Source of the DNA: Rhizophagus irregularis | Taxonomy: Eukaryota > Glomeromycota > Glomeromycetes > Glomerales > Glomeraceae | Direction: 5' to 3' | NCBI RefSeq assembly: GCF_026210795.1 | Contig: NC_089430.1 | Span: 5,952,001 to 6,016,000 of the forward strand | DNA length: 64,000 nt | Part shown: positions 6,199 through 53,537 of the stretch, piece by piece | Numbering within the stretch: the first letter of the stretch is position 1 | How the letters are laid out: every line of letters begins with the position of its first letter | Translations under genes and position numbers: made by a program | The notes under the pieces: model-generated | Databases searched by the model: none | What the model saw: only the letters and a program-made list of their open reading frames with translations | What the model was told of the DNA's origin: nothing

Positions 6199-7683
6199 AT
6201 GCCAAATAAAATTTCCAAAGTCTTTTATGGAACATTAATTCATTCATTATCTCTTGCCAATCTTGAAATCCTACAAAATACTTTATTAGGAGTAGATATT
6301 TCTGGAAAGATAGCTTTCTTAGAAAAAAATGTTTTAGACGAAATAACTTTGAGTCATATTATTTCTCAATGGGAATTTCCTGAACAAGAGGTTATTAGAT
6401 TGAGTAAAAGACAATTTCTTATGCCTGGATTTATTGATACTCATACACATGCATCACAATATCCAAATGCAGGAACTGGTATGGATTTACCACTACTTGA
6501 TTGGTTGAATAAATATACATTTCCGCTTGAACAGTCATACTCATCATTATCGTTTGCTGAGAAAGTTTATCCAATAGTAGTAAATAATTTATTGCGCAGT
6601 GGAACGACAACGGCTGTTTACTTTGCAACAATTCATCTTGAATCAAGTAAATATTTAGCCAGATTAGTTAAGGAGAAAGGACAGAGAGGGTTTATTGGAA
6701 AAGTTAATATGGATTGTAATTCACCGGAGAATTATATTGAGTCATTAGACAATAGTGTTAAATCCACTGAAGAATTTGTAAAATATGTGTTAAATTTAGA
6801 AAAAGATGAAGGAAGAGGAAATGGATCGAGACTCGTTTATCCAATAATTACACCTAGATTTGCAATCACTTGTACATCGCAACTTATGAATTCACTTGGA
6901 TTATTAGCAAAAAAATATAATATGCCAATTCAATCACATTTATCAGAAAATATAGGAGAAATAAATTTTATTTCAGAACTATTTCCACATCTACCAGATT
7001 ATACAACAGTATATGATCATCATGGATTATTAAATGAAAAAACGATTATGGCTCATGGAATACACTTATCGTCAAAAGAACTTAAATTAATTAAAGAACG
7101 TAATATTGGTATATCCCATTGTCCTACTTCAAATTTTGCTATATGTTCAGGTGTATGTAACGTTAGACAATTATTAGATGAAGGTATTAAAGTTGGTTTG
7201 GGTACCGATTTAAGTGGCGGCTATTCAAAGTCTATTTTAAATGCTATAAGAAATGCAAACATAGCAAGTCGCGTTGTATTTATGGCTTCTTCAAAAGTTG
7301 ATGATAAACCTTTGAATAAATCTTTTCCGCACCTTACTTTACCTGAATTAACTTATTTAGCTACAATGGGAGGTGCTGAATTGGTCAATCTTGATAAGGT
7401 TATCGGAAATTTTTTAATTGGTAAAGAATTTGATGCTTTATTAATTGATCCTGATGCTTGTCAATCTCCCTTAGATATTTTTGATGATTTAGAAGATACT
7501 GAAAGAATTTTTGAAAAATTTATATTTCTTGGTGATGAAAGGAATCTTAAATCTGTTTATGTTAAAGGAAAGAAAGTATCTGGAACTGATCTGGTAAGTA
7601 TGAATTTACGTGAAAAAGAATTATTAAAAAATTTAAGTAAATTGGATGGTGGAAATTGTCATTTGTGTAATCCAAATTCATAA
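6199..7683 (+). CDS. Guanine deaminase
   Basis: A single uninterrupted exon of 494 codons in the amidohydrolase superfamily. It converts guanine to xanthine and ammonia, a cytosolic step of purine catabolism. The diagnostic metal-binding motif PGFIDTHTHASQYPNAG gives His82 and His84. Further ligands are His247 in IQSHLSE, His286 in IMAHGIH and Asp337 in GLGTDLSGG. HCPTSN at about 307-312 is the usual substrate-loop signature. The length is slightly above the roughly 450-residue animal enzymes, mainly through the N-terminus and loops. The start ATG follows a T-rich leader and AAAACTAAA, and no upstream in-frame alternative was found. The coding region is less AT-rich than its flanks and has no stops, so it looks functional. 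Other cytosine/adenosine deaminases of the superfamily are less likely given the THTHASQYPN signature. Confidence 0.95.
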   Translation: MPNKISKVFYGTLIHSLSLANLEILQNTLLGVDISGKIAFLEKNVLDEITLSHIISQWEFPEQEVIRLSKRQFLMPGFIDTHTHASQYPNAGTGMDLPLLDWLNKYTFPLEQSYSSLSFAEKVYPIVVNNLLRSGTTTAVYFATIHLESSKYLARLVKEKGQRGFIGKVNMDCNSPENYIESLDNSVKSTEEFVKYVLNLEKDEGRGNGSRLVYPIITPRFAITCTSQLMNSLGLLAKKYNMPIQSHLSENIGEINFISELFPHLPDYTTVYDHHGLLNEKTIMAHGIHLSSKELKLIKERNIGISHCPTSNFAICSGVCNVRQLLDEGIKVGLGTDLSGGYSKSILNAIRNANIASRVVFMASSKVDDKPLNKSFPHLTLPELTYLATMGGAELVNLDKVIGNFLIGKEFDALLIDPDACQSPLDIFDDLEDTERIFEKFIFLGDERNLKSVYVKGKKVSGTDLVSMNLREKELLKNLSKLDGGNCHLCNPNS

Positions 7684-24305: not shown

Positions 24306-27300
24306 ATGACTAGTGAAGAAAGGACTTTAGAGGAGTTATTAAGAGAAATTCTACGACTTAATTATGATAAGCCTAAAATTTGTGATTTAGTAAATGAAGG
24401 AATTTTGAGCGTTCAAGTAAATAAAGTTATGAAAGCTTTTGAAAATGATTCGGAAGTTTTTCCACAAGGAAATGAAATTAAGCATTGGAATAAAGTGAAT
24501 ATACGAAATTGGGCAGATTCTATAAAAGGAACAGAAATTACAAAGAATCCAGAGTTTTTAGAAGAAATGATAGCAGTTCTTAAGAGGACAAATTTCCTTT
24601 ATTGTAAGCATAATCTGAGAATAACACAAGTTTTAGCTATATTACTCTTTGTGTCACCAAATGAACAAGGAAGATTGTTACAAATATCAACAGGAGAAGG
24701 AAAGACTACCATATGTGCTATGCTCGCAAGTATTAAGGTATTGCAAGGAGAGAATGTGGATATAATAACAAGTTCCCCTATTTTAGCGAAAAGAGATGCT
24801 GAAGAGAGAGAAAGTTTCTATAAAATATTAGGAATCAGTTGTGGGTCTAATGAAGGCGAAGACTATTCATTAAGCATAGTAGATGGTCGTAATGGAATTC
24901 AATTAGAAACAAATAAGAACTGCTATTTTAAAAATATAGTATATGGGGATGTAAGCGAATTTCAGTTTGATTGGCTAAAACATGAACATAAGAAAATAGG
25001 TACTAAAGGAAATAGAGGGTTTGGTGTAGTAATTGTAGATGAAGTAGATACCATGATAATTGATGACTGTAGCAGGAGTGCAAGGTTAACAGGAGAACTG
25101 GCAGGGTTTGAATATTTAAATCCAGTATTTTGTGGGGTAGCAAATGAGTTAACTAGATTAAGCAAGCGAATAATACGGACAGAAGAGAATTTAATATATT
25201 TAGATGGTGAGTTCAAAGAAGGAGGAGAACTTATCTTAGGAGAAGAGATAAAATGCTATGAAATAAATAATTGGTATGAATTTATCTCTGAATATTTAAC
25301 AGAATTTACAATAAATATAATAAAAAAAAGGAAAATAGAACTGCCAGATTTTTTAAGAGATTTTTGTTTAAAGTCAGTAGAAGAGTTTGTTAAATCAGCA
25401 ATTGAAAGTTGGAATGTATATCAAGAGAAGATAGAATATCTAACAGTAAAAGGTAAAAATGAAAACTCGAATATTGCACCAGTTGACTATGAAAGCACGG
25501 GAATAGTGCAAGAGAATGAGACATTTTCTGATGGATTGCATCAATTTCTGCAGATAAAGCATGGGCTCAAACTTACACCTGAATCAGTAGCTACAAGCTT
25601 TGTTTCAAATATGGGATATTTTAAAAATATGGTGCTAAGATATATGGGTTAACAGGAACAATTGGATCTAAGGAGGACCAAGATATGTTATCCTCAATTT
25701 ATACAGTAGATTTTGGATTTATGCCAACATATAAAGCAAAAAAATTTAAAGAGTTAGAAGGGATAGTGACCAGTAATAAGAATGCATGGATTATGGAAGT
25801 AGTGAGTAATATAAAGCAAGAAGGAGAAAGAGGAAGAGCAGTACTAGTTATTTGCGAGACAATAGATAATGTAAAAACAATTTATGATATTCTAATAGAA
25901 GTTTATTCAACAAGGAAAATAAGGTTATATTCTAGAAATGATAATGATGAATGTTCAGCAGTAAAAGAAAGAGTTAACTCAGGAGATGTAATAATTGCAA
26001 CAAATTTAGCAGGAAGAGGAACAGATATCAAAACAAGTTTTAGCGTTGAAAAGAATGGAGGTTTACATGTAATAGTTACTTTTTTACCATCAAACTCAAG
26101 GGTAGAGGAACAAGCATTTGGGAAAACAGCAAGACAAGGAGCAAAAGGAACAGCCCAATTAATAATTAATAAAATATATACAGAAAACAAATTAAATATG
26201 ACTGGAATTTTAAGTAATATATATGAATTTAAGCAACTTAGAGATAGTAAAGAATATATAAGAATACAAACAGTTAAATTATATAAGGCAAAAGAAGTTG
26301 AATTAAGAGATAAATTATTTGAAATATATTTAGAGGTTGATAATGATTTACGAGAGATAGAAGAAAATAAGAAGAAAGAAAAGACGATATTAGACATATT
26401 AGAAAAAGATAAGAGATATAAATATAAATTACTGCAAGTAGAAGAAAAATGGGGATTAGAGCTAAAAATATTTGAAAAAACATTAGCTTATGATAGCAAA
26501 ACAAGAGAAGAACTAAAACAAGTAGCGAAAAAATTTGGATTTAAACCATATGGTAATAATGAAGCAATGTTTAGTTTATATAAGGCAATTAGTGTAAGTT
26601 TAGGAAATAAAGCAAGTAGTGAGCAGTTGCTATGGCTAGCAGTAGGTTATTTTTTAGATAATTTTACTGGAATGTATTACCGTAATGATATTAATTTTTA
26701 TAAAAAAGCTGCAAAAAGTTTTAGTGATAAAAAGGCATTAAAAAGTTTGACTTCAGTATTAGGAAGAAATATAGTAATAATAAGTAGCAATCAAGAAAAT
26801 TTGATGATTTACAAAATAAAGGATGTGAAAGAAACGATTTATATAGGTTTAGAAGATGGAAATAAAAAATATTTTAAAAATTATAGACCTTTAAGAAAAG
26901 TTTCGTATAATTATGATATAATAGAAAAGTATTCAATAAAAGTAGAAGTAAAAGCTACTGAGTATAAAAGTATTACAAATCTTTTTGAAAGAAAAGATTT
27001 AAAAAAATTGATAGATGAAATTATAAAACAAAAGTCAAAAGAAGTAGAAGAATGCAATCTAGCAAAAAGAAATGAGGGAATTAGTTATTTTAAAAATTTC
27101 TTTAATAAAATAAAAGAAGAATATAAAACAGGCAATAAAATAATGAAAAACTCAGCATATATGGTACAAATGGGAATTGAAAAGTCAGAAGTCAAAGAAA
27201 AAATAGATATATTAGAAGGTGCATGTAATTTAGAAAAAATATATTCATTGCCAGCACGTTATAATTTAGCTCATGCAGTAATTGAAGAACAGAAAGGAAA

Positions 27301-28933
27301 CTATAAACAAAAAGCCATTAAAAACTTATTAATAGCAAAAGATCAAATAAATGGAATATTAATACCTTACTTAGAATATATACAAATAACACTCCCATTA
27401 GGTCAAAGTTGTGAATTATTAAAGCAAATAATTAACAAAATAGAAATATTGAAGGCAATTAAATGTAATATTGAAGAAACAATTAAAAAATTTAGTAATG
27501 ATAATGAAGCAAACATTAAAATAAACAAAATTAGACTAGATGATTATTTTAATAAAGATAAGAATTTAAACATGGAAATAAGAGAACTAGAAAATGAAGG
27601 ATTATATTATATTTTTGATATAGAATTTGCAATAGATTGGGTTGGAGTAATATTCTTAGGAATAGCAGGAGTGGTACAAATTGGAATAGGAGCATTTTGT
27701 TTATACAAAGGACTTGATGAATTAGGGACATTTTTTATAGAAGAAGGTATTAGGGATTTAATAAATATAATAAACTTATTAATAAAAAAGCAAAAATTTG
27801 ACCTAAACGATTATATTAGTGAAAAAGCAATTAGTATATCAATGGATTTAGTTTTATTAGGAGCAAAAACAGTATTATCAAAATTACATAAACTTCCAAA
27901 AGAAATACAAATACCTAATAATTCTTCTAATTCATCCAATTTTTCAATTATATCCATATTAAAGAAAATAGGAAAAAATATGGTAATAAAGGAATGCATA
28001 CATACATTATTAGATACTAGTGCAGATAAATTTGTAAGTCTTTTTAAAGAAAAAGTAAAAGAGAATATATTAAAAGAATTAAGAGTAAGCCTAGATGACC
28101 AAATTATATTAATATATTTAAATAAGTTAATGGCAACAGATATATTATTTGAAGAAGTAGAATTAGATGAAATTACAACAAGTACATTAAAAATTTTAGA
28201 AGATAAGCGAAATATGTTTAGAGAGTTAATAGATGAAGGATTAGAAGAAATAATAAAAGATAAACATCCAGTATTTAAAGGAATTGCAATAGCAGCTAAA
28301 GTTGTAGATTCAACAATAATATTAAATAAAATAAATAAAGTAGCAAAAGAAGCAGCAAAAGAAATATCAACAACATTTAAAACTAAGATAAAAGAATCAT
28401 ATAAACAACAAACATTTGAGATAATCTTAGAAAGGGGGTTAAAGCCAAAAATAGATTTAAAAGATGCAAAAGAAATAATAATATTATTAAAAAAAGATAA
28501 AGTAATAAATGATGAAGAATTTGATGAAGACAAAGCACAAGAAATAGATTTTAAACAATATAACAATCATAAGTTAGAAATAATAAGAATATTAAGCAAA
28601 TATAATAAGTTAAGAAAAAAGGAGTACAGTTATAAAGGAAAAGAAGATTTAATAAAAAAATATGAAGAGTATATAACAAAATTTGTTTTAAATAAAATCA
28701 AAACTCAAGCATTAGGATGTTTAACAAATGTAATGACAGATAAGCTAACTGATTATATAAATGATAAGATAAGTAGTGAATGGAATAAATTTAGAAAAGA
28801 ACAAATCCAAAATTTAAAAAGTATAACTTCATTAAAGTTAGCAGAAGAATTTTCACAAAATAAAGAATTAGATAAAAAATTAAAATTGGAAATAACGAAA
28901 ATATTAAAAGCTAATTTTAAAAAAAATAAATAG
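24306..28933 (+). pseudogene. SecA-like DEAD/helicase ATPase with long C-terminal extension, one frameshift
   Basis: Two abutting open frames, 24306-25652 (448 codons) and 25685-28933 (1082 codons), form one intronless gene of about 1,540 codons. The first carries the SecA-type Walker A (QISTGEGKTTI, about 127-136), TSSPILAKRDAEE (motif Ia) and the Walker B IVDEVD (about 243-248). The second carries NLAGRGTDIK and KTARQGAKGTAQLI, the second RecA-domain motifs of SecA. They are separated by loss of one base in an A-run near 25625; the frame after it reads IYGLTGTIGS, the expected SecA element joining them. The C-terminal 900 residues are Lys/Glu/Asn-rich helices plus a hydrophobic stretch (DWVGVIFLGIAGVVQIGIGA). 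SecA drives protein export in bacteria and plastids; a fungal cell has no such pathway, so this role is doubtful here. Lack of introns and the bacterial domain suggest ancient transfer, possibly from an endobacterium. Confidence 0.85.
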
Positions 28934-37137: not shown

Positions 37138-38508
37138 TACACAGGCAATCTCAATAAATCGGATCCTCGATAAATCGGATTTGGCACTATTTCGGATTTT
37201 TCTTTTGGAACCAAATCATCTATATTAAAACAGTCTTGATATATCGGACTTTATTAGTAAAATCTCAATATTTCGTAAATCGGATTTTATTTTAGATTAA
37301 CTATAGTTAAAAAATCTTGATATGACGTATTAATTTTTCAGAGTCCGAAATAATTATGTTAATCATTTATTAATTAGGAAAACAATTTTCTCACTGTTTT
37401 TTTTTCAAAATATACTTTAGTATGAGAGAAAACAAAGATACGAATAATAAAAAGAAGAAATCTTTAACATTAGCTCAAAAGAAAGAACTCTGTGAAAAAC
37501 AAAGAAATCAAAAACTTAGTGGTGTTCAATTAGCAGCACAATATGGAATTTCCACTAGCACAGTTTTTGATATTTTAAAAAGATCAGAACATTGGCTTTC
37601 CATTGATACCACTTTACCAAATGCAAATAATTTTCGTGAAAAATCTAGTGTTTATCCACAACTAGAAAAAGTAATGAGCATTTGGATTGATCAACAAATT
37701 TCAAGAAATTTAACTATAAATGGGCTTATTATCCAACAAAAAGCAGTAGAGTGTGCTAACTTACTTGATATCACCAACTTTTCAGCATCTGCAGGATAGT
37801 TAAGCAACTTTAAACAGAGAAATAATTTGCATACATATAAAAAAAAAGGAGAAGCTGGCAGTGCTCCTATTAATGAACTTTCACAAATAAGAGCTGAATT
37901 ACAAGAAATTCTTCAAGCATATAAACTAAAAGATATCTGGAACTGTGATGAAACTGCTCTTTTTTGGCGTTTAGAACCATCCAAAACAATAGCACATGAT
38001 CCTGTACTTGGTAAAAAATGTCTGAAATAATGTGTTAGTATTTTGGCAACTTGTAATGCTTCTGGTGATGAAAGATTGCCTTTAATTTTTATTCATAAAT
38101 ATGAAACACCACGTGTATTAAAGAGAATTGAAAAAAGATCTCTCCCTGTTTGGTATTATTGGAATTCTAAAGCTTGGATGCAAAGAAGTATTTTCAAACA
38201 TTATCTTAAAAAATTAAATTCCAAAATGCTTAAAGAAAATCGGCATATTATTTTACTAATAAATAATGCTAGATGTCATGAATCTGAGAACATCAATAGC
38301 ACTAGTCGAAAAAGGAATATTCGGCCTTAATACAATTTGGCCTATATTCGACTAAAATTAATAAAATTTGACTTCAATTAGTAAAGATCTACGATTAGAC
38401 ATATATTCAACCTAGTTGAATTATGTTAATCAAACGTTATGCATTACGTGATACACGTATTAAAATAAAAGTTTAAAAAAGGATGATCCTTTTTTAAACT
38501 TTTTTAAT

Positions 38509-38658
38509 TTTCTTCCTTCCCTCCCCGCCCTTTCCCTTCCTTTGTTCCCTTTTCCTTCATCCCAGTTTCTCTTCTTCCCCTTTCCTTCCCTTCGTTCTCC
38601 TTTCCCTTCCTTCGCTTTTCCCTTCCTTACTCTTTTCCCTTCCTTTCGTCACTTATCT
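38509..38658 (+). repeat. 150-base pyrimidine-rich tract
   Basis: Almost pure C/T of the CCCTTCCTT type immediately upstream of the first unit of the array. A similar T/C-rich tract (CCTTTTCCATCCCTTTCC) lies at about 48168-48250 within the second set of arrays. Confidence 0.85.
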
Positions 38659-38742
38659 CTTTCGAAGGTATACATATACCTTCAAATTTTCACTTCTTTT
38701 AACAAAACGTTTCACTAATGTTTTCGTTTTTTTCTTTTTTAG

Positions 38743-41700
38743 ATTCAAGACACCCATTTAAAAGGCTCGAATGGGCTTCTAAAGTACAGAAACCCCAAAG
38801 ATTCCTAAGTACGAATTCTTTGGAGTTTTTTTTTATATTTTTAATATGAACGGTTACTAACCATTTTTTTTTTACTTTTTTTTTAGATTTGGCTATTTGG
38901 GTGGGTTTCCGAAGTATAGAACCCCCAAAGATTCGTAAGTACAAATTCTTTGGAGTTTTTTTTTATATTTTTAATATGAACGGTTACTAACCATTTTTTT
39001 TTACTTTTTTTTTAGATTTGGCTGTTTGGGTGGGTTTCCGAAGTATAGAAACCCCAAAGATTTGTAAGTACGAATTCTTTGGAGTTTTTTTTTTATATTT
39101 TTAATATGAACGGTTACTAACCATTCTTTTTTTACTTTTTTTTTAGGTTCGGCTGTTCGGGTGGGCTTCCGAAATATAGAAACTCCAAAGATTTGTAAGT
39201 ACGAATTCTTTGAAGTTTTTTTTATATTTTTAATATGAACAGTTACTAACTGTTCTTTTTTTACTTTTTTTTTAGGTTCAGCCGTTCAGGTAGGCTTTTG
39301 AAGTATAGAAACCCCAAAGATTCGTAAGTACAAATTCTTTGGAGTTTTTTTTTATATTTTTAATATGAACGGTTAATACTAACCATTCTTTTTTATTTTT
39401 CTTTTTTAGGTTCGGCTTTCAAGTGACTTCTGAAAAATGGAAAAAACCAAGTTTCGTAAGTTCGAAACTTGGTTATTTTTTTTGTTTATTTTTAATATTA
39501 TGAACAGTTATTAATAACCGTTCTTTTTCTTTTTTTTTTTTAGGATCGGATGTTCGAAGGACGGAAAAATTCCAAGATTCGTAAGAATCTTGGATTTTTT
39601 TTATTTTTTTTAAAAAAAATATTATGAACGGTTACTAATAAAGCTCCGAACAGGTCGGTTTGGTCCGAATTATAGACGGTTTGGATTAGAGCCAAAATCC
39701 GTAAGAACCGAACTGAAAAACTGGCAGTTCGGTTCAATTTAATCCGATTTTTATAAAAATGCGAAAAATCAAATAGCCGGCCATCTAGTGATCGTATAAA
39801 GTCGAGCCATATTTCATTGGATTCGTCTCGATGAGACGCGACGAATGGTGCTAAGATCATGTCTCTAGCATCGATAGATCACACGTTAATCCACGCTAAA
39901 TGATTTATAAATAATTGGAATTAGCAAGCTATCTATCGGTGCTAGAGACATGATCTTAGCACCATTCGACGCGTCTCAGTGAGACGAATCCAATGAATAT
40001 AAATTCGTTCATGTACGACTACTGGATGGCGAATAATATCAAGTTTAGCATTTTTTAAAAAATTTCGAGCATTAAAAATTAAAAATTCCGATACATGAAT
40101 TTATTCGTCGTCCAATGGTCGTACAAATATGAATTATGACTCATTGGATTCGTCTTGATGAGACGAGTCGAATAGTGGTGAGATCATGTCTCTAGCATTA
40201 ATAGATCGTAAGTTAATTCACGCTAAATAATTTATAAAAAATTGGCATTAGCAAGCTTCTATCGATGCTAGAGACGTGATCTTGCCACCATTCGACTCGT
40301 CTTATCGAGACGAATCCAATGAGTCCTAATTCATATTTGTACGACCATTGGATGACGAATAAATTCATGTATCGGAATTTTTAATTTTTAACGCTCGAAA
40401 TTTTTAAAAAAATGCGAAACTTGATATTATTCGCCATCCAGTAGTCGTACACGAACGAATTTATATTCATTGGATTTGTCTCACTGAGACGCGTCGAATG
40501 GTGCTAAGATCATGTCTCTAGCACCGATAGATAGCTTGCTAATTCCAATTATTTATAAATCATTTAGCGTGGGTTAACGTGTGATATATCAATGCTAGAG
40601 ACATGATCTTAGCACCATTCATCGCGTCTCATCGAGACGAATCCAATGATATATGGCTCGACTTTGTACGATCACTAGATGGACGGCTATTCAATTTTTC
40701 GCATTTTTATAAAAAATCGGATTAAACTGAACCGAACCGCCAGTTTTTTGGTTCTAATACCCGAACTGAACCGAACCGAATTTTGAGCCAGTTTCGGATT
40801 GGTTCCCTGGTTTAGCCCGAACCGTTCGGAGTTTTAGTTACTAATAACCGTTCTTTTATTTTTTATAGATTCGGGTAGACTTCCGTGTTCTGAAGAACGG
40901 GAAAATTCCAAAGATTCGTAAGAATCTTGGATTTTTTTTTTATTTTTTTTTAAAAAAATATTATGAACGGTTACTAATAACCATTCTTTTCTATTTTTTA
41001 GGATCTAGTGGACTTCCAAAGAAAGGAAAACCAAGAAATCAAGATTAATAAGTAAGTACGAATCTTGGTTTAATTTTTTTGTTTTTTTTTTAATATATGA
41101 ACGGTTCTAACCGTTCTTTTCTTTTTTTTTAGGATCTGGTGGGCTTCCAAAGAATGAAAACCCAAAGATTCGTAAGTACGAATCTTTAATTTTTGGTTTT
41201 ATTTATTATTATTACGAATGGTTTACTAACCATTCTTTCTTTTTTTTTATAGATTCGGATGGGCTTCTGAAGAACGAAAACCCAAAGATTCGTAAGTACG
41301 AATCTTCAATTTTTTTTTTATTTATTATTATTACGAATGGTTTACTAACCATTCTTTCTTTTTTTTTATAGGTTCTGGTGGGCTTCCGAAGAATGAAAAT
41401 CCAAAGATAAAGATTCGTAAATACGAATCTTTATATATTTTTTATTTTTATTTTTTTATTATTTTGGAACGGTTTACTAACCGTTCCTTTCTTTTTTTAT
41501 AGGTTTGGGCGGGCTTTTGTGTGAAAAAACCAAGATTCGTAAGTACGAATCTTGGTTTAATTTTTTTAATTTTTTTTTTAATATTAATGAACGGTTACTA
41601 ATAACCGTTCTTTTTTTTTAGGATCGGGTGGAGTGGACTTCTGACCTTCGGGAAAAGAAGAACCAAGATTCGTAAGTACAAATCTTGGTTTATTTTTTTT

Positions 41701-42198
41701 GATTTTTTTTTTTTAATATTAATGAACAGTTACTAATAACCGTTCTTTCTTTTTTTTTAGGCTTTGGGTTGGCTTCTGATCTTTGGAAAAGTGAAACCAA
41801 GATTCGTAAATATAAATCTTGGTTTATTTTTTTTGATTTTTTTTTTTTAATATTAATAAACGGTTACTAATAACCGTTCTTTCTTTTTTTTTAGGCTTTG
41901 GGTTGGCTTCCGATCTTCAGAAAAGTGGAACCAAGATTCGTAAGTACGAATCTTAGTTTATTTTTTTTGATTTTTTTTTTAATATTATTATGAACAGTTA
42001 CTAATAACCGTTCTTTTCTTTTCTTTTTAGGTCTCAGGTGTCTCAGGTGGCTTCTGAAGAACGAAAAAAACCAAAGATTCGTAAGTAAGTACGAATCTTG
42101 GTTTTTTTTCTTATTTTTTTAATATTATAAACGGTTACTAACCGTTCTTCTTTTTTTTTATAGGTTCAGGTGGATTGCTAAAGAACAATCAAAGATTC
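38743..42198 (+). repeat. Array of 18 micro-exon/micro-intron units
   Basis: Exon-like units (consensus GGTTCGGGTGGGCTTCCGAA followed by AACCCAAAGATTC) are separated by intron-like units. Each intron starts GTAAGT or a close variant, contains TACTAAC/TACTAAT in a hairpin about 20-25 bases before the end, then a T-rich tract and AG. Clear exons are 38887-38934, 39016-39063, 39147-39194 and 39276-39323, each exactly 48 nt, with introns of 81-86 nt. Later units are 37-60 nt. In the first six units the same phase gives an open spliced frame with a 16-residue repeat such as SFGCLGGFPKYRNPKD. From the ninth unit phase is lost. A foldback insertion (39641-40836) sits in intron 7. Whether it is transcribed and spliced is unknown; the alternative is a subterminal-type repeat array that mimics splice signals. 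Confidence 0.75.
39631..40846. mobile_element. 1.2-kb palindromic foldback element
   Basis: The element 39641-40836 (1196 bp) is flanked by the 10-bp repeat GTTACTAATA (39631-39640 and 40837-40846). The two halves are near-perfect reverse complements about a centre near 40235. Within each half, blocks such as GATCATGTCTCTAGCA and CTCATTGGATTCGTCT occur again inverted, giving a palindrome within a palindrome. The ends read AAGCTCCGAAC and, reversed, TAAAACTCCGAAC. Non-coding. The related element at 44911-45468 shares the GCTCCG terminus. Confidence 0.88.
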
Positions 42199-43256
42199 GT
42201 ATATACGAATACATGAATCATGTAATTGTGGAATTGTATTTGAATTAGCAATATTTTTTGTAAATTAGATAGATAATGCAATAATAATAATATAATTATA
42301 AAGTATTTAAGCATTAATAAATACATTTATTTAATAAATTTGATAAAAAAATCAAAATAAATTCATAAATAGATGGGTTGTTATTAGACCATAATTCGGC
42401 TTAAAGTTTTAATGTCGAATATTGGTCAATTTAAACCTGAATAATGGTTGAATAATTTGTCCAAATTTGGGACGATTGGCACCCTAAATGCGTCCAAAAA
42501 TTTGACCTCAATTTGACACAGATTAGATCATCATTTGACCTATATTCGACCTGGTCAAATTTAAGTCAAATTGTTCTTTTTCGACTAGTGTAGTTTTTCA
42601 AATGTTAAGGTTCATTTTTTACCACCAAATACAACATCATTTCTTCAACCATTAGATCAAGGTATTATTTATAGTTTAAAAGCACAATATCGCAAATTGC
42701 TATGTCAAAATCATATTCAAGCTTATGATTTTTATGAAGAGGGAGACCCCATTCCACCCCCAATTAATATTTTTGATTCAATCAGTTTAATTGCTGATGC
42801 CTGGAAAAAAGTATCTAAAAAAACAATTCTTAACAGTTGGGCTAAAGCTGAAATCCTTCCCAATAATATGGAAGATTCTGAATATTCAGACAATTCCGAT
42901 TATGAAGAAGATAATATGGACATGAATTACAATTATTAATTGATGAGTTAGGATTCATAGATCCTTTAGCTATGAATGACTATATTAATATTGATAATAG
43001 AGCATCTGCTGAAGAGAAATTATCATTACAAGAAATTGTTGACGTTGTAAAGGGAACAAATGAAAGGGAAATTGAAGAGGAAAAGAAGCAAGATGAAATC
43101 TCTACAATAGTTGCGTTAAATAGCATTGAAAATGTAATTAAATATATTCAACAAAAAGATTTAGAAATTGGTAATTTAGAAATGAAAAATTTAATTAAAT
43201 TGAAAAAAAGGATCTTTTTTGATAATATGGTGTCGGAACTCTATACTCAAAAATAA

Positions 43257-45873: not shown

Positions 45874-48689
45874 TTATAACCTGATACCTCATCATTCGAC
45901 CAGTAGTTTAGTAACGTTTCTTAAAGAATATAATAAAAAAATCTACTCCCTAACCTCCTTTTTTACCTAAATTCCAAAGTCCAGTTCGTATTATTTGTCT
46001 GGCAACCTAAAAAAAAGAAAGAGAAGCGTTAGAACGTTTCTCTTAAAAAAAAATATTATTCCTCCTCTCCTTCACTTTACATAATTCCAAAGTCTGGTTT
46101 GTAGTTTTCGTCCAGCAACCTAAAAAAGAAGCATTTAGTAATGTAATAAAATAAAAAAAACCCACTTCCTGACTCCTCTTTTACCTAAATTCCAAAGTCT
46201 GGTTCGTATTATTCGTCTGGCAACCTAAAAAAAAGAAAGAGAAGCGTTAGAACATTTCTCTTAAAAAAATAAAATATTATTCTTCCTCTCCTTCACTTAC
46301 ATAATTCCAAAGTCCAGGTCGTATTATTCGTCTGGCAACCTAAAAAAAAGAAAAAGAGAAGCGTTAGAACGTTTCTCTTAAAAAAAAATATGTTATCCCA
46401 GTTTGTAGATATGATATTGACCGATTGATGATCAATTTCTTTTCCTGCAATTTGTGTCATTCGTGAATTGGGTGAGATGTGATCCGTAATCTAGATCAGG
46501 ATAATCTGATTTGGAAAAAAAAATTTCTTTTTTGTGAACAAAAAAAATTGCCGGACTTTGAGAATTGAAGTAAGAGAGGAGTTTTTCGTTGTTTTTTTTT
46601 AATAAATTAAACTAATTTATTTTTCTCTTTTGTAGGGTTACTGAATGAAAACTAGACTCTTGGAATTGAGGTAAGGGAGGGCTGAGGGAGAAGGTTTTTC
46701 GTTTTTTTTTAATATATTTTTTTCTTTTTTGTAGTGTTGCCAGATGAAAAATATTGCCGGACTTTTGGAATTGAAGTAAGAGAAGGCTGAGGGAAAGCTT
46801 TTTCATTGTTTTTTTAATAAATTAAACTAATTTGTTTTTTTCTTTTTTATAGAGTTGCCAGACGAAAACATTGCCAGATCTTTGGAATTGAAGTAAAAAA
46901 GGGCTGAGGGAAAGCTTTTTCATTGTTTTTTAATAAATTAAACTAATTTATTTTTTTCTGTTTGATAGGGTTGCCAGACAAAAAACATTGCCGGACTTTT
47001 GGAATTAAGGTAAGGGAAGGTCGGGAAAAGGATTTCATGATTTTTTTTTTTAAATAATTTAATTTATGGTTTTTCTTTTTTTAAGGTTAGCCAGACAAAA
47101 AATATGATCAGATTTTTGGAATTGAGGTAAAGGAGGACTGAGCAGAATCTACTTTTTTGTAGAGTTGCTGGATGAAAATATACTAGTGTTTCGTTCCTTT
47201 AAACTAATTTGAATCTTGATGAAAAATAGAGTTGTTTCTTTTCTAAGCAGATCCAAGGCATTGGAAAGTTTGGCTGGAACCTGGAATTTTTTAGACGTTT
47301 CTGGATCATTGATTTCGGTGGAACAGAGCAATTTTTTTTTTTAAAAAAAATTTTTTTATAACGAAATGCTTACTAACGTTTCAATTTTTTTTTTTATAGT
47401 TGAAGTATTCAAATTCGGTGAGCATTGTTTTTTATCTTTAATTCTTTTAATGAATAATCCCTAAAGGTTTATTCTTTTTTTTTCTTCTGTAGACGGCTGG
47501 TGCTTTGGAACATTTGGATGCATGTGAATCGGTAAGGAAGGTTTTTTGAATAATGAAGCGATACGGTTACTAATTATTTCATTTTTTTTTTTGTAGATAG
47601 TGATATTGGAATTCGGTGAATTTATTATTCAAAATATATTGTGAAGGCAATTGGATGATGATTATCTAACGAAGATTATGTTATAGAGTCTTTGAACAAA
47701 AAAATTTAAAGGTTCTTAAGATCTCCTTAAACGTAAGTATCGTTATGTTTATTTTTTTTTAAAAAAAAAATAATCTTTTTTAATGAATCGTTTATTAAAA
47801 TGTTTCGTTTATTTCATTTTTATAGACGACCAATTCTTCATTATCTTTGGACATGGATTTTGGTAAGGGGTGAATATTCTTGGATTATTTATTTAATTAA
47901 ATAATTACTAATGTTTGTTTGTTTAAAAATCTTTTAGACAGCTCTTCTACTCTTTAAACGTGGGAATTTGGTGAGTGTGATGTTTCTTTTAATTTTTTAT
48001 TCTATCTTTTAAAGGACATTAACTAATTTCTTTTTTTTAGATGGTTTGTTTCTTAGCTCTTTGGACGTGAAATTCGATGAGAACATTCCTTTAACAAGAC
48101 GTTTTGTATTCCAGGTCTTTAGATGAGTGAAAACTTTCGTAGGGATTAGGCCATCGAATATAAATCTACTCCACTTTTCCAACACTTTTGCCGTCTTTTC
48201 CATTCCTTTTCCATCCCTTTCCACACTTTCGTCTCCCCTTTTCCATTCTTTTTTCATTTCCATTTCTTTTATCTTTTTTAGATGACTTCTCAGCCCTTTG
48301 GATATGGCATTCTGGTAAGTTTTGTAATGGTTCTGTAAGGTAAAATCAAATATTAGTCCAAGATGGTTTTCAGTATATAATAAGGTAAAATTGTTTATAT
48401 TTCCGAACCTGTATAATATTTAGTCATTAGCGGATTAGATTTTTTCAATAACGGATTTAATAACATGTTTTAAAATATTTTTTTTTATACAGTTTTTATA
48501 AACTGGTTCAAAACTCTTTAAACTCCATATGGGAAGAGTTATATAGGATATCTGATGGAAAATTTTTTTTAAGAGATTTTCTAAGAGTTCATATGGGAAG
48601 GGTTCGTATGGGATATCTGATAGAAAATTTTTTTTTTTGAGAGATTTCCTAAGATTCCACTGGTCGAATGATGAGGTATCAGGTTATAA
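45874..48689. repeat. Divergent micro-exon arrays bounded by a perfect 31-bp inverted repeat
   Basis: The inverted repeat begins TTATAACCTGATACCTCATC at 45874-45904 and is repeated in reverse at 48659-48689. Inside, 45955-46385 carries about four units readable on the minus strand (TTTTTTTTAG, then GTTGCCAGACGAATAATACG...TTTGGAATT, then GTAAG). The interval 46636-47125 carries five units of the same exon type on the plus strand (exons 46636-46670, 46735-46775, 46853-46892, 46969-47009 and one ending near 47125). They diverge from 46390-46560. A third set follows on the plus strand: 47400-47417, 47493-47531, 47597-47615, 47826-47862, 47938-47970, 48041-48075 and 48282-48314. Each of these is bounded by T-rich AG and GTAAG/GTGAG, except one with ATGAGA. 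TACTAAC or TACTAAT is present in several introns. Confidence 0.65.
48527..48656. repeat. Tandem duplication of about 62 bp
   Basis: CATATGGGAAGAGTTATATA and CATATGGGAAGGGTTCGTAT begin two adjacent units that both continue GGATATCTGAT(G/A)GAAAATTTTTTTT and GAGATTT(T/C)CTAAG. Confidence 0.75.
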
Positions 48690-50094: not shown

Positions 50095-50950
50095 CAGTAG
50101 ACTTATAGGAATGCAAGAAGTGCAGAAGGTTAATATATTTTTTGTTTTTTTTTTCTTTTTCTTTTTTCTTTATTTTTTTCACCTTATTCTTATTTCTTTA
50201 GGGATGAGTCTTTTCTCTTGGAATGGCGATTTTGGTAACTACTGAGAATGCAAAAGATGCAGAAGGTTAATATATTTCTTTTTTTTTCATTTTTTTTTTT
50301 AATTTTATTGTTTTTTTCTTTACTTATTTAATTCTTATTTCTTTAGGAATGGGTCTCTTCTCTTGGAATGGCAATTTGGTGATTTCTAAAAATGTAAAAG
50401 ACGCGAAAAGTTAGTACTTAGTATATTTTTTTCATTTTCATTTTAATTTTATTGTTTTTTTCTTTACTTACCTAATTCTTATTTCTTTAGGAACAGGTCT
50501 CTTCTCTTGGAACGGCAATTTTGGTAATTTCTAAGAATGTGAAAGATGCGGAAAGTTAGTATATTTTTTTCATTTTCTTTTTTTAATTTTATTGTTTTTT
50601 CTTTACTTACCTAATTCTTATTTCTTTAGGAACGGGTCTCTTCTTTCGGGATAGTGATTGGGAATAGAGGTAAATGTGAAGTGGCTGTGTGTAGGTCAGT
50701 GTATTTATTGTAATTAAGAGACGTTCTCTTCTTTTTGTAGAACATTATTAATCAAGCAATTTAGACTCAGATTGATTCGACTCATCAACTCGTTTTGGAG
50801 CACTACTGCTTCAGTTCTGATTTTTGGGTTTGGATATATAGGTGAGTTTTGAAGAGAACTTTAAAAAATTTTTTTTAAAAAAATTTATTTAACTTTTTTT
50901 TCTTTTATTTTGTAGGTTTCAGCTTCAGTTTTTGGGTGTTGGATAGGTGA
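50095..50950 (+). repeat. Third micro-exon array
   Basis: Exon-like units 50202-50234, 50347-50378, 50491-50523 and 50630-50669 share GGTCTCTTCTCTTGGAATGG. They are bounded by TTTCTTTAG and GTAAC/GTGAT/GTAAT/GTAAA. The introns themselves are repeats: each begins with a segment ending (G)AATG(C/T)(A/G)AAAGA(T/C)GC and ends with a long T/C-rich tract. Two more exon-like pieces (50740-50850, 50916-50947) are bounded by TTTGTAG and GGTGAG. Unit sequences differ from the other arrays, so the relation is architectural. Confidence 0.6.
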
Positions 50951-51794
50951 GCGAAGCTTTGAAATTTTAAAAACCTTATTTTTTTTTAAAGTTTATTTAA
51001 TTTTTTTTCTTTCACTGGTCGAAATCAAAACTTTCGACCGTTAAGAGCTTTCGGCATAATTTTTGTTGATTGGTCATGTGATTCGTCACATTTTTTGACC
51101 AATGGCAAAAATCGGTAAAATCAATCACAAATCGACTGATACTGATTGTTAAATAAAAACTCGTTCAGTCTTTTGGTGAAAAATCGACTTATACCAATTG
51201 TTATACAAAAACTTGTTCCTTTAAGGTCATTCAGTAAATTTTGCCGATTGGTCACATAAATTGACACAATTTTGCCAAATAGTAAAAAACATTATTTTTT
51301 AATTCGAATTTTATACTTTATTTACATTGTTTATATTCAGTGCATAATCATTAACGAAAATTTTTATTGTAACATGAATTTCGACTTGTTTTTCGTCAAG
51401 TAATTATAATAAAAATACTACAAAAGAATCTTTTCGTAAAATGAAATTTTATCTAATAAACATGTCTCTCGTCAAGTAATTATAAAAATTAAAAAAATAA
51501 AAAAAATAATTCAGCCGATTTTTACCAAAACACTTAATTATTAACGAATTTGGAGTTTGCAATTAATTGGATTAATCGCCAAATATTCAATAGCATTACT
51601 CTGAGTAGAAATTTGATATTTTGATAGTATAAATCGACAAAGGATACTATGTACAGGAATAAGGTTGCTGGAGAAACTAGAGGGTTTTGGCAAGTTGGCG
51701 AAATGCTGAAATAGCGAAACTTTACTGAAACTATATGAAAGTCATATTAAAAAGTTAGCGAAACTCTAGAGAAAAGCGAAACCTAACAAACTTA
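50951..51794. other. Non-coding stretch between the micro-exon array and the tnp2 relic
   Basis: A CACTGGTCGAAATC motif at 51016 resembles a CACTA-type terminus, with TTTCGACC directly after it in inverted order. From 51660 to 51850 GCGAAAC/CTGAAAC-type short repeats recur. No gene. Confidence 0.45.
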
Positions 51795-53537
51795 TTATAA
51801 ATGCCAAAACTGCTGAAACCTTACCGAAACCATAATAAAACTATAGTAAAATCTTGGAGAAACTAATCGTAGAATTTTGGAGAGGTTTAGGCAGGCAACC
51901 TTATACAGGAATAATACAATCACGGCTTTCATCATAAAATTCAGATTTCCACAACTCGACGTTACAGCTCTCATCTTCATCATCAATATGAAAATAATAT
52001 TCGTACTAGCTGGTCGATACCAACAAATATATGCCAAATTATGTTCCATTTGTCCATTTGGCAAGTCGACTGTATGTTTGAAGAAGTATTGAATTTGTCC
52101 AGGATAACTGTCGACTTCTCCATCACTAGTTATAAATTTGGCTAGAACACACGAGCTTTTTGTATGTCGAACTGACATTGCGGAGCCAAATACTTTGGAA
52201 CTAATTTGGCATCTTCCAAATTGATTTATCTTTACTCGAATTGTTATAGAATCTTGGATAATTTCATCTGCTGGTTTGCGAAACTTGTACATTTCGATAT
52301 AAGAAGCATTATAAAAAGCAACCATCAGTTCGAGCATTGATTCAGTCATTATTGCTTCAGAACTAGGCTTCAGCATTTCTCCAGGAAACGGCTCGCATCC
52401 AGTAATAGTTAATTCCTGTATGTTTTTAGCATTTAGCAAAAACCGCTCTAGTTCATCTGAAGAAAATTGGTCCGCAGCCGATATTGAACCAGTTGTGGGT
52501 CAATCTTCAAGCAATTCTGAGCCTTTCGTTTGAATGTCAGAACTAATGATATCTTCAATTTGATTATCATTCATTATCTGACGCATTATTTCTGGTTCAA
52601 TTTGTCTATTACTTGTTGGCAACGAGCCTTAAAAATTATTAAAAATAAGACTAACAATGTAAACATCCGAATAAAGTAAAAAAAGTAAAAAAAAGAATAT
52701 CTTACCGAGTATTCCATTCATACGCTCAAATGAAAAATACCAAAATGCATACAATGGACCAAAATCATTCGAACAATCGCACAAATGAAGCGAAAGGTGA
52801 AGATTAGGCGTAATTTTTACTCTTCCATAGTGTACTTCAATAAGCTTAATTATTTTAATTAGCCTCTCATGAGCTTCTTCCATTAATTCAATTTCTAAAA
52901 TTCGGCTTACTAAAATAGAACAAACTCTAACGAAATGTGTCAAGATTTTTTGATCTTTTGACGGTAAATGTTCCCACAATGAGGTAGTTGCATAGATTAT
53001 AAAGAAAATTTGCCACTAATCAGCTGTATAGTTCGAAAACCCTTCTTCGCGCTCAATATTCCCAGGAATTCGTCCCAAATCAGCCGGTATTTTGAATTGA
53101 TTCATTTTTTCTTGAATCTTCTTTAGATCGTTTGGGTTAAAATACCCTCATCGATCCAATCCTCTTCATTATCCACCTTGCAATTCCTAAGAATAAGCAG
53201 TGCATTGGATCTACAATAATAAAACGAATTGAATCAAAGTACGGCAATCGAAGTAACTCTGACCACCTAACCCCTTTTTCACTAACGAAATTCTTTCTTG
53301 AATTGGTGGAATTGCAATTTCGCCATGCAAGAGCATTCTGACGATGTTCGGTCGAATCACGAGTAATGAACCAATTCTCCATATCCTCCATACCTGCAAA
53401 ATTATGTTGGTGGTCTTCATAATTTGCTCGTTTTATACACCGATGGCAAGAAACCAAAGCTGAAATATACCCGCATATTTTTTGAGCAGCAGGGATATCG
53501 CATGAAATTAGTACTAAAGCCGCACGAATATTTTTCC
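51795..53537 (-). pseudogene. CACTA-type transposase (tnp2/DUF4218 family), broken
   Basis: Read from 53537: IRAALVLISCDIPAAQK, then VSCHRCIKRANYEDHQHNFA, then LLRLPYFDSIRFIIVDPMHC, the conserved tnp2 block around the catalytic Asp. Frame changes near 53150-53110 and an in-frame TAG (about 53018, where the family has Gln) follow. After these LWEHLPSKDQKILTHFVRVC and LYAFWYFSFERMNGILG match the DUF4218 region. A GTAAG...TTTTTAAG intron (52707-52630) leads to an exon with an in-frame TGA near 52497. The frame 52439-51795 then gives the C-terminal part (FRKPADEIIQDSITIRVKIN). These transposases mobilise elements with CACTA ends, so it could be related to the mover of the 38300-42590 element. This copy is inactive. 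Confidence 0.85.

Follow-up and report, generated by a model that had tools for sequence, protein, structure and literature searches.

Short repeats near the ends are usual in CACTA elements, and Tgm-Express and other gene-carrying CACTA elements of plants reportedly hold fragments of various host genes, exons and introns included. Rows of many very short exons are found in the micro-exon genes of schistosomes, where the reading frame is kept. Families of similar introns with inverted symmetry and possible RNA hairpins are described for Hypoxylaceae, as introner-like elements and symmetrical stwintrons; there the symmetry is reported to span the intron from one end to the other, and individual introns to reach new genes without target duplications (PMC8469720). 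In Rhizophagus irregularis itself, the SP7-like repeat effectors are described as secreted proteins with one conserved intron before the first repeat (PMC11333574, PMC3886924), and the repeats of arbuscular mycorrhizal fungi are reported to be largely unclassified (PMC11075540). A literature search covering the titles and abstract openings of open-licence papers found no description of a transposon built of an exon-intron array.

The locus described here lies in a window of 64,000 nucleotides of the R. irregularis genome (RefSeq assembly GCF_026210795.1, contig NC_089430.1, positions 5,952,001 to 6,016,000, forward strand), to which all coordinates refer. It resembles non-autonomous CACTA (En-Spm, CMC) elements in its CACTA terminal inverted repeats, 3-bp target duplication, short subterminal motifs (identified by eye) and Transposase_21-bearing relative, but differs in that its interior is a tandem exon-intron array with donor and branch sites embedded in hairpins. 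As in Tgm-Express, exons and introns lie inside a CACTA element; here, however, one module is repeated many times, and searches of the R. irregularis genome itself identified no host gene with the array exons. The run of very short exons recalls schistosome micro-exon genes, but the frame is not kept. The introner-like elements as described are likewise families of similar fungal introns with inverted sequences that may form RNA hairpins; each intron here, however, has two local hairpins, the first spanning the exon-intron border, in place of the end-to-end symmetry described there (PMC8469720), and the introns stand in tandem and are carried together by a transposon. Tandem repeats and introns in the same species are common ground with the SP7-like effectors, whose published descriptions (PMC11333574, PMC3886924) set them apart from this locus, where an intron accompanies every repeat and the frame is not maintained.

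Ends, insertion site and relatives of the element

The element is an insertion that splits a DDE_1 transposase gene, with the following features at the insertion site.

38300-42590, + strand: non-autonomous CACTA element, with ends CACTAGTCGAAAAA ... TTTTTCGACTAGTG
38297-38299: left target-site duplication, TAG (flank comparison)
42591-42593: right target-site duplication, TAG (flank comparison)
38040-38297, + strand: upstream part of the DDE_1 transposase gene (Pfam PF03184, E 3.8e-20, profile positions 8-93 of 177)
42595-42906, + strand: downstream part of the same gene (Pfam PF03184, E 6e-16, profile positions 100-177)

The terminal inverted repeats of the window copy start with CACTA and are exact at both ends. 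Both ends could be paired, with no more than two mismatches over 14 bases, in 16 of 25 loci checked (nine were unpaired), and 13 of the 16 paired copies carry a 3-bp target duplication. The paired copies lacking it are L008, L022, which is a nested arrangement, and L029, which was initially paired to a false inner end. At its true ends L029 measures 7.1 kb and is flanked by TCA on both sides. It carries an 814-residue frame with a Transposase_21 match (Pfam PF02992, E 9.3e-12), its ends correspond to those of the window element (left end, 77% identity over 111 bp; right end, 90% over 128 bp), and it is the one end-paired element with no array (0 modules). The target duplications in 13 of 16 copies, together with a relative whose matching ends enclose Transposase_21, identify the window element as a non-autonomous CACTA transposon, and so bear out the CACTA-ended mobile element proposed in a preliminary description of this DNA. 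The element is wider than the interval given there (38743-42198) and ends at 38300 and 42590.

Genome searches with the two ends give match counts that are lower bounds: at least 40 for the left end (120-base query; best 40 of 78 candidates scored) and at least 41 for the right end (114-base query; best 40 of 73 candidates scored). An exact 15-base end motif occurs 60 times in the genome, and its reversed control not at all. Transposase_21 itself has at least 155 matches genome-wide (best 150 of 393 candidates scored), and the enzyme encoded by full-length relatives such as L029 would be the one to move the window element in trans. Transposase candidates inside array copies, near L003 and at C4, fell outside the element ends. 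Long element candidates on C13 and C14 (L017-L021) contained other repeats, and the six frames tried in them gave no Pfam transposase.

The array of micro-exons and micro-introns

The interior of the element can be read as a leader, a leader intron, an array in which micro-exons, mostly of 36-57 nt, alternate with micro-introns of about 85 nt, and a final exon with AATAAA.

38467-38503: near-perfect 37-bp palindrome in the left part or leader region, common to several other copies (self-inverted match)
38528-38660, + strand: pyrimidine-rich tract, proposed promoter or leader (tandem-repeat rows at 38528-38646)
38668-38742, + strand: leader intron-like segment with the palindromic donor GAAG/GTATACATATACCTTC (by eye; acceptor at 38742)
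38805-38886, + strand: first array intron, its donor broken (CTAAGT, against GTAAGT elsewhere)
38935-39543, + strand: five intact intron modules found by strict search (38935-39015, 39064-39146, 39195-39275, 39324-39409, 39456-39543)
39581 (donor) and 40868 (acceptor), + strand: intron split by a nested element
39642-40837: nested 1.2-kb inverted-repeat element, between two copies of TTACTAATAA (39632-39641 and 40838-40847)
40918-42163, + strand: ten intact intron modules found by strict search (40918-41001, 41052-41132, 41172-41252, 41292-41371, 41417-41502, 41539-41621, 41672-41760, 41806-41894, 41940-42030, 42081-42163)
42164-42338, + strand: terminal exon and proposed 3' end, with two copies of AATAAA (42316-42321, 42333-42338)

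A strict module had to run from GTAA[GA][TA] through a TACTAA-like motif and then a T-rich tract to the first [CT]AG, over 60-110 nt in total. The interval 38743-42198 contains 15 such modules on the + strand and none on the - strand, while 200 dinucleotide shuffles of the same interval gave a mean of 0.03 and a maximum of 1; the remaining 59 kb of the window hold one on the + strand and four on the - strand. Signals of spliceosomal introns (GT donor, branch motif, T-rich tract, AG and intron length) are thus present in all 15 modules, which define introns of 80-91 nt separated by exons of 36-50 nt. The repeated units of donor, TACTAA, T-tract and AG in the preliminary description are thereby confirmed, and its splice pairs 38935/39015, 39064/39146 and 39195/39275 were recovered exactly by the module search. 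Its count of 17 introns is reached if the broken-donor intron and the split intron are added to the 15 strict ones, and its eighteen-unit array is real but not continuous, being interrupted at 39642-40837. It made no mention of the nested transposon, of the hairpins or of further exon-intron arrays in the window.

The nested element sits in the branch hairpin of one array intron, so that the array is split at this point. Its inner arms (458 nt) are 95% complementary, and its 10-bp target repeat is the branch-hairpin loop TTACTAATAA of the array. With this insertion in one intron and the broken donor at 38805, the window copy is damaged.

Other copies vary in the number of units. Among the 16 end-paired elements, 15 (the window copy included) hold between 3 (L001) and 18 (L013) modules on the + strand, and none of the 16 has a module on the - strand. 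A two-unit array query has at least 295 matches in the genome (best 40 of 374 candidate places scored), and the order of exon lengths is alike in several copies (47, 57, 46, 39, 39, 45, 36, 50 ...). A total of 285 introns parsed from 27 loci (L017 and L019 left out) have a mean length of 85.1 nt and a range of 65-108 nt. In copy L007, four of six adjacent 46-nt exons are identical, which points to recent tandem duplication; this and the 3-18 modules per array-bearing paired copy uphold the tandem amplification of an exon-intron module suggested earlier. The array would expand as complete exon-intron units are duplicated in tandem, and contract as they are deleted. In all copies read the introns stand in arrays, and a comparison of copies at the GT, branch and AG positions did not find these varying freely. 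Old copies decay at the splice signals too, as seen in their mismatch profiles: 54 of 315 donor-type hairpin loops no longer start with GT, and 21 of these start with AT.

Hairpins at donor and branch sites and their explanation

In most units the exon end pairs with the start of the intron, and the hairpin so formed holds the donor in its loop. In one class the arms CCAAGATTC and GAATCTTGG enclose the loop GTAAGTAC; in another, CCAAGTTTC and GAAACTTGG enclose the same loop. The branch motif lies in a hairpin of its own, between GAACGG and CCGTTC or between GAATGG and CCATTC. Of the 180 distinct junctions, 159 have stems of at least seven pairs, and examples of their loops are GTAA, GTAAGTAC, GTAAGTAAGTAC and GTAAGTATTCCGTATTAC; the length of the donor loop varies, and its start stays at the donor. 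A fold below -9 kcal/mol is reached by 84.6% of the 285 element junctions and by one of 49 intron-like donors elsewhere in the window. A search of 29 loci by the arms alone, with GT not required, found that 261 of 315 donor-type loops start with GT (41 of 76 distinct loops; a count without a computed chance level) and that 271 of 321 branch-type hairpins have CTAA or ACTA in the loop. An Rfam search of the window gave no match at the gathering score.

Hairpin arms match better within than between units. The mean fold energy of the 180 distinct donor junctions is -12.67 kcal/mol within the unit, compared with -9.26 with the intron arm of a different unit (300 re-pairings; sd 0.20, lowest -9.92) and -3.64 with a shuffled intron arm. 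For 147 distinct branch sites the corresponding values are -7.65 within the unit, -6.25 re-paired between units (300 re-pairings; sd 0.13, lowest -6.61) and -1.83 with the arm shuffled. A pairing test in fixed register, with loop lengths mixed, was significant only for the short branch hairpins (1 of 1000 shuffles reaching the observed value) and not for the donor hairpins (276 of 1000) or long branch hairpins (95 of 1000). Folds of the exons alone show no consistent excess over shuffles.

The better arm matching may be due to selection on RNA, to use of the sites in DNA, or to template-switch repair of imperfect palindromes. Were the pairs kept in RNA, G-U mismatches would be expected to outnumber A-C mismatches. 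In distinct sequences there is no sign of such upkeep, with 60 G-U against 48 A-C at the donor (p 0.29) and 35 against 44 at the branch (p 0.37). All donor copies, which are non-independent, lean towards G-U (91 against 58, p 0.009), and all branch copies give 39 against 53 (p 0.18). One degenerate junction pattern used to look for spliced retrocopies had no genome match, which is weak evidence either way. Strong hairpins over a donor should hinder U1 pairing.

On balance we favour a non-autonomous CACTA transposon whose interior is a transcription unit, a hairpin-bearing array of micro-exons and micro-introns yielding an RNA that would be spliced and mostly non-coding, the element itself being mobilised in trans. 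This rests on the strand-biased modules, the matching of hairpin arms, the loops that start with GT, the CACTA marks and exon phases that are not conserved (see below); counted against it are the absence of spliced retrocopy matches, the expected hindrance of U1, the wobble counts, the fixed-register test, the decay of splice signals and the open exon chains of four of nine copies, which could be translated. The pyrimidine-rich leader would drive transcription of the + strand. The start of each intron would pair with the end of the preceding exon, presenting the donor in a hairpin loop, with the branch motif in a second hairpin, and introns removed singly would leave a short, polyadenylated, mostly non-coding and stop-poor RNA (AATAAA at 42316 and 42333). 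AAUAAA is reported to be the main poly(A) signal of R. irregularis (PMC10234402). Splicing might depend on the opening of the hairpins during transcription, or the hairpins might be a by-product of array copying. A benefit to the element, such as shielding of its transcript from RNA silencing, can only be guessed at. The RNA half of the spliced repetitive RNA or protein envisaged in the preliminary description thus survives in part, since splicing would best explain why the donor and branch motifs persist in loops whose length varies. A spliced array would offer a natural series of near-identical micro-introns with varying donor loops and stems, so that existing RNA could show directly how local structure influences splicing in fungi. 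It would also be a case of a transposon that amplifies an exon together with an intron, and from which new intron-rich genes might arise.

A more far-reaching proposal, which we hold to be a long shot, is that more than one type of transposon in R. irregularis belongs to a class built on self-amplifying chains of structured micro-introns. Donor and branch sites presented in loops would permit splicing only once the hairpins open, a switch serving the element, for instance by concealing its RNA from silencing or controlling when the element is expressed. If true, the cargo of these transposons would be splicing units.

It is unlikely that the palindromes are features of the DNA, either sites for an accessory transposition protein or hairpins generated and kept perfect by template switching, with the central splice motifs as unused passengers. 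Such an origin would accommodate the palindrome at 38467-38503, outside the array, the mismatches in distinct sequences, where no RNA-specific tolerance is seen, and the short repeats usual near CACTA ends. It leaves unexplained, however, the T-tract and AG found at intron length 3' of each branch hairpin, the GTA start of loops of very different length, and the strict strand bias.

An exon-intron gene, captured or home-grown, that was tandemly duplicated and is now silent, its array a neutral by-product of transposon copying, appears improbable. The 54 of 315 loops without GT, the wobble test with no sign of upkeep, and the broken donor and nested insertion of the window copy would all fit such a history. 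Neutral duplication alone, however, would not give arm matching within units that far exceeds that between units, and unrelated exon-intron arrays occur in other repeats of the genome.

Coding potential, further arrays and neighbouring genes

Exon lengths show no bias to multiples of three (remainders 0, 1 and 2 in 79, 55 and 74 of 208 exons), homologous exons are in different phases in different copies, and the six 46-nt exons of L007 rotate through phases 1, 0, 2, 1, 0, 2. A shared protein product is therefore unlikely, and the protein among the products first envisaged is not supported as a conserved product. Of nine copies tested, four (L003, L007, L026 and L027) have joined micro-exons that are open throughout, a length equalled by 2, 41, 1 and 1 of 100 exon shuffles, respectively. 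The 21 consensus exons, which are related to each other, contain 13 stop triplets in three frames compared with 21.3 (sd 3.0) after shuffling, and antisense stop triplets are likewise depleted (6 against 15.0). A stop-poor RNA open in several frames is a curiosity in its own right. A secreted or DNA-binding repeat protein specified by the array at one repeat per exon, in the manner of repeat effectors or micro-exon genes, is very improbable, since the open chains and the shortage of stops, the latter qualified by exon relatedness and antisense depletion, are set against spread remainders and an exon class that changes phase between copies.

Two further exon-intron arrays lie in the window, downstream of the element. 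The second (46540-48320) has units of about 117 bp, with exons ending in TTGGAATTGAA before GTAAG, and becomes irregular towards 48320; several of its introns have a hairpin after the donor, and inverted exon copies lie at 45963-46360. The third (50100-51000) has units of about 144 bp. Genome searches returned at least 113 matches for the second array (48 candidates, best 40 scored) and at least 228 for the third (125 candidates, best 40 scored). The third led to a 4.8-kb repeat (L031-L033; L031 and L032 about 91% identical), in which its second exon type forms arrays of at least 20 introns elsewhere in the genome. The 10-kb loci L031, L032 and L033 gave 24, 28 and 29 parsed introns, a few of them outside the repeat. 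These introns have a hairpin just after the donor, and its arms again match better within the unit (-5.62, 52 distinct) than when re-paired (-4.39; sd 0.28, lowest -5.15 of 300). The 4.8-kb repeat has no CACTA ends; its 3' end reads CTAG/T, as in Helitrons, and its 5' end does not fit. The presence of unrelated arrays inside a 12-kb stretch of the window, and again at other places in the genome, suggests a process common to arbuscular mycorrhizal fungi.

CACTA-type ends (CACTGGTCGA) were also observed at 48658 and 51013. A frame on the - strand at 51795-52376 resembles by eye the frames beside the L029 transposase and has no Pfam match. Elsewhere in the window, a SecA-like gene of this fungal chromosome, in two adjacent frames (24306-28933, + strand), matches SecA_DEAD (PF07517, E 2.7e-30) as well as the SecA P-loop and Helicase_C, and a complete amidohydrolase frame of 494 residues (PF01979, E 1.7e-58) lies at 6199-7683 on the + strand.
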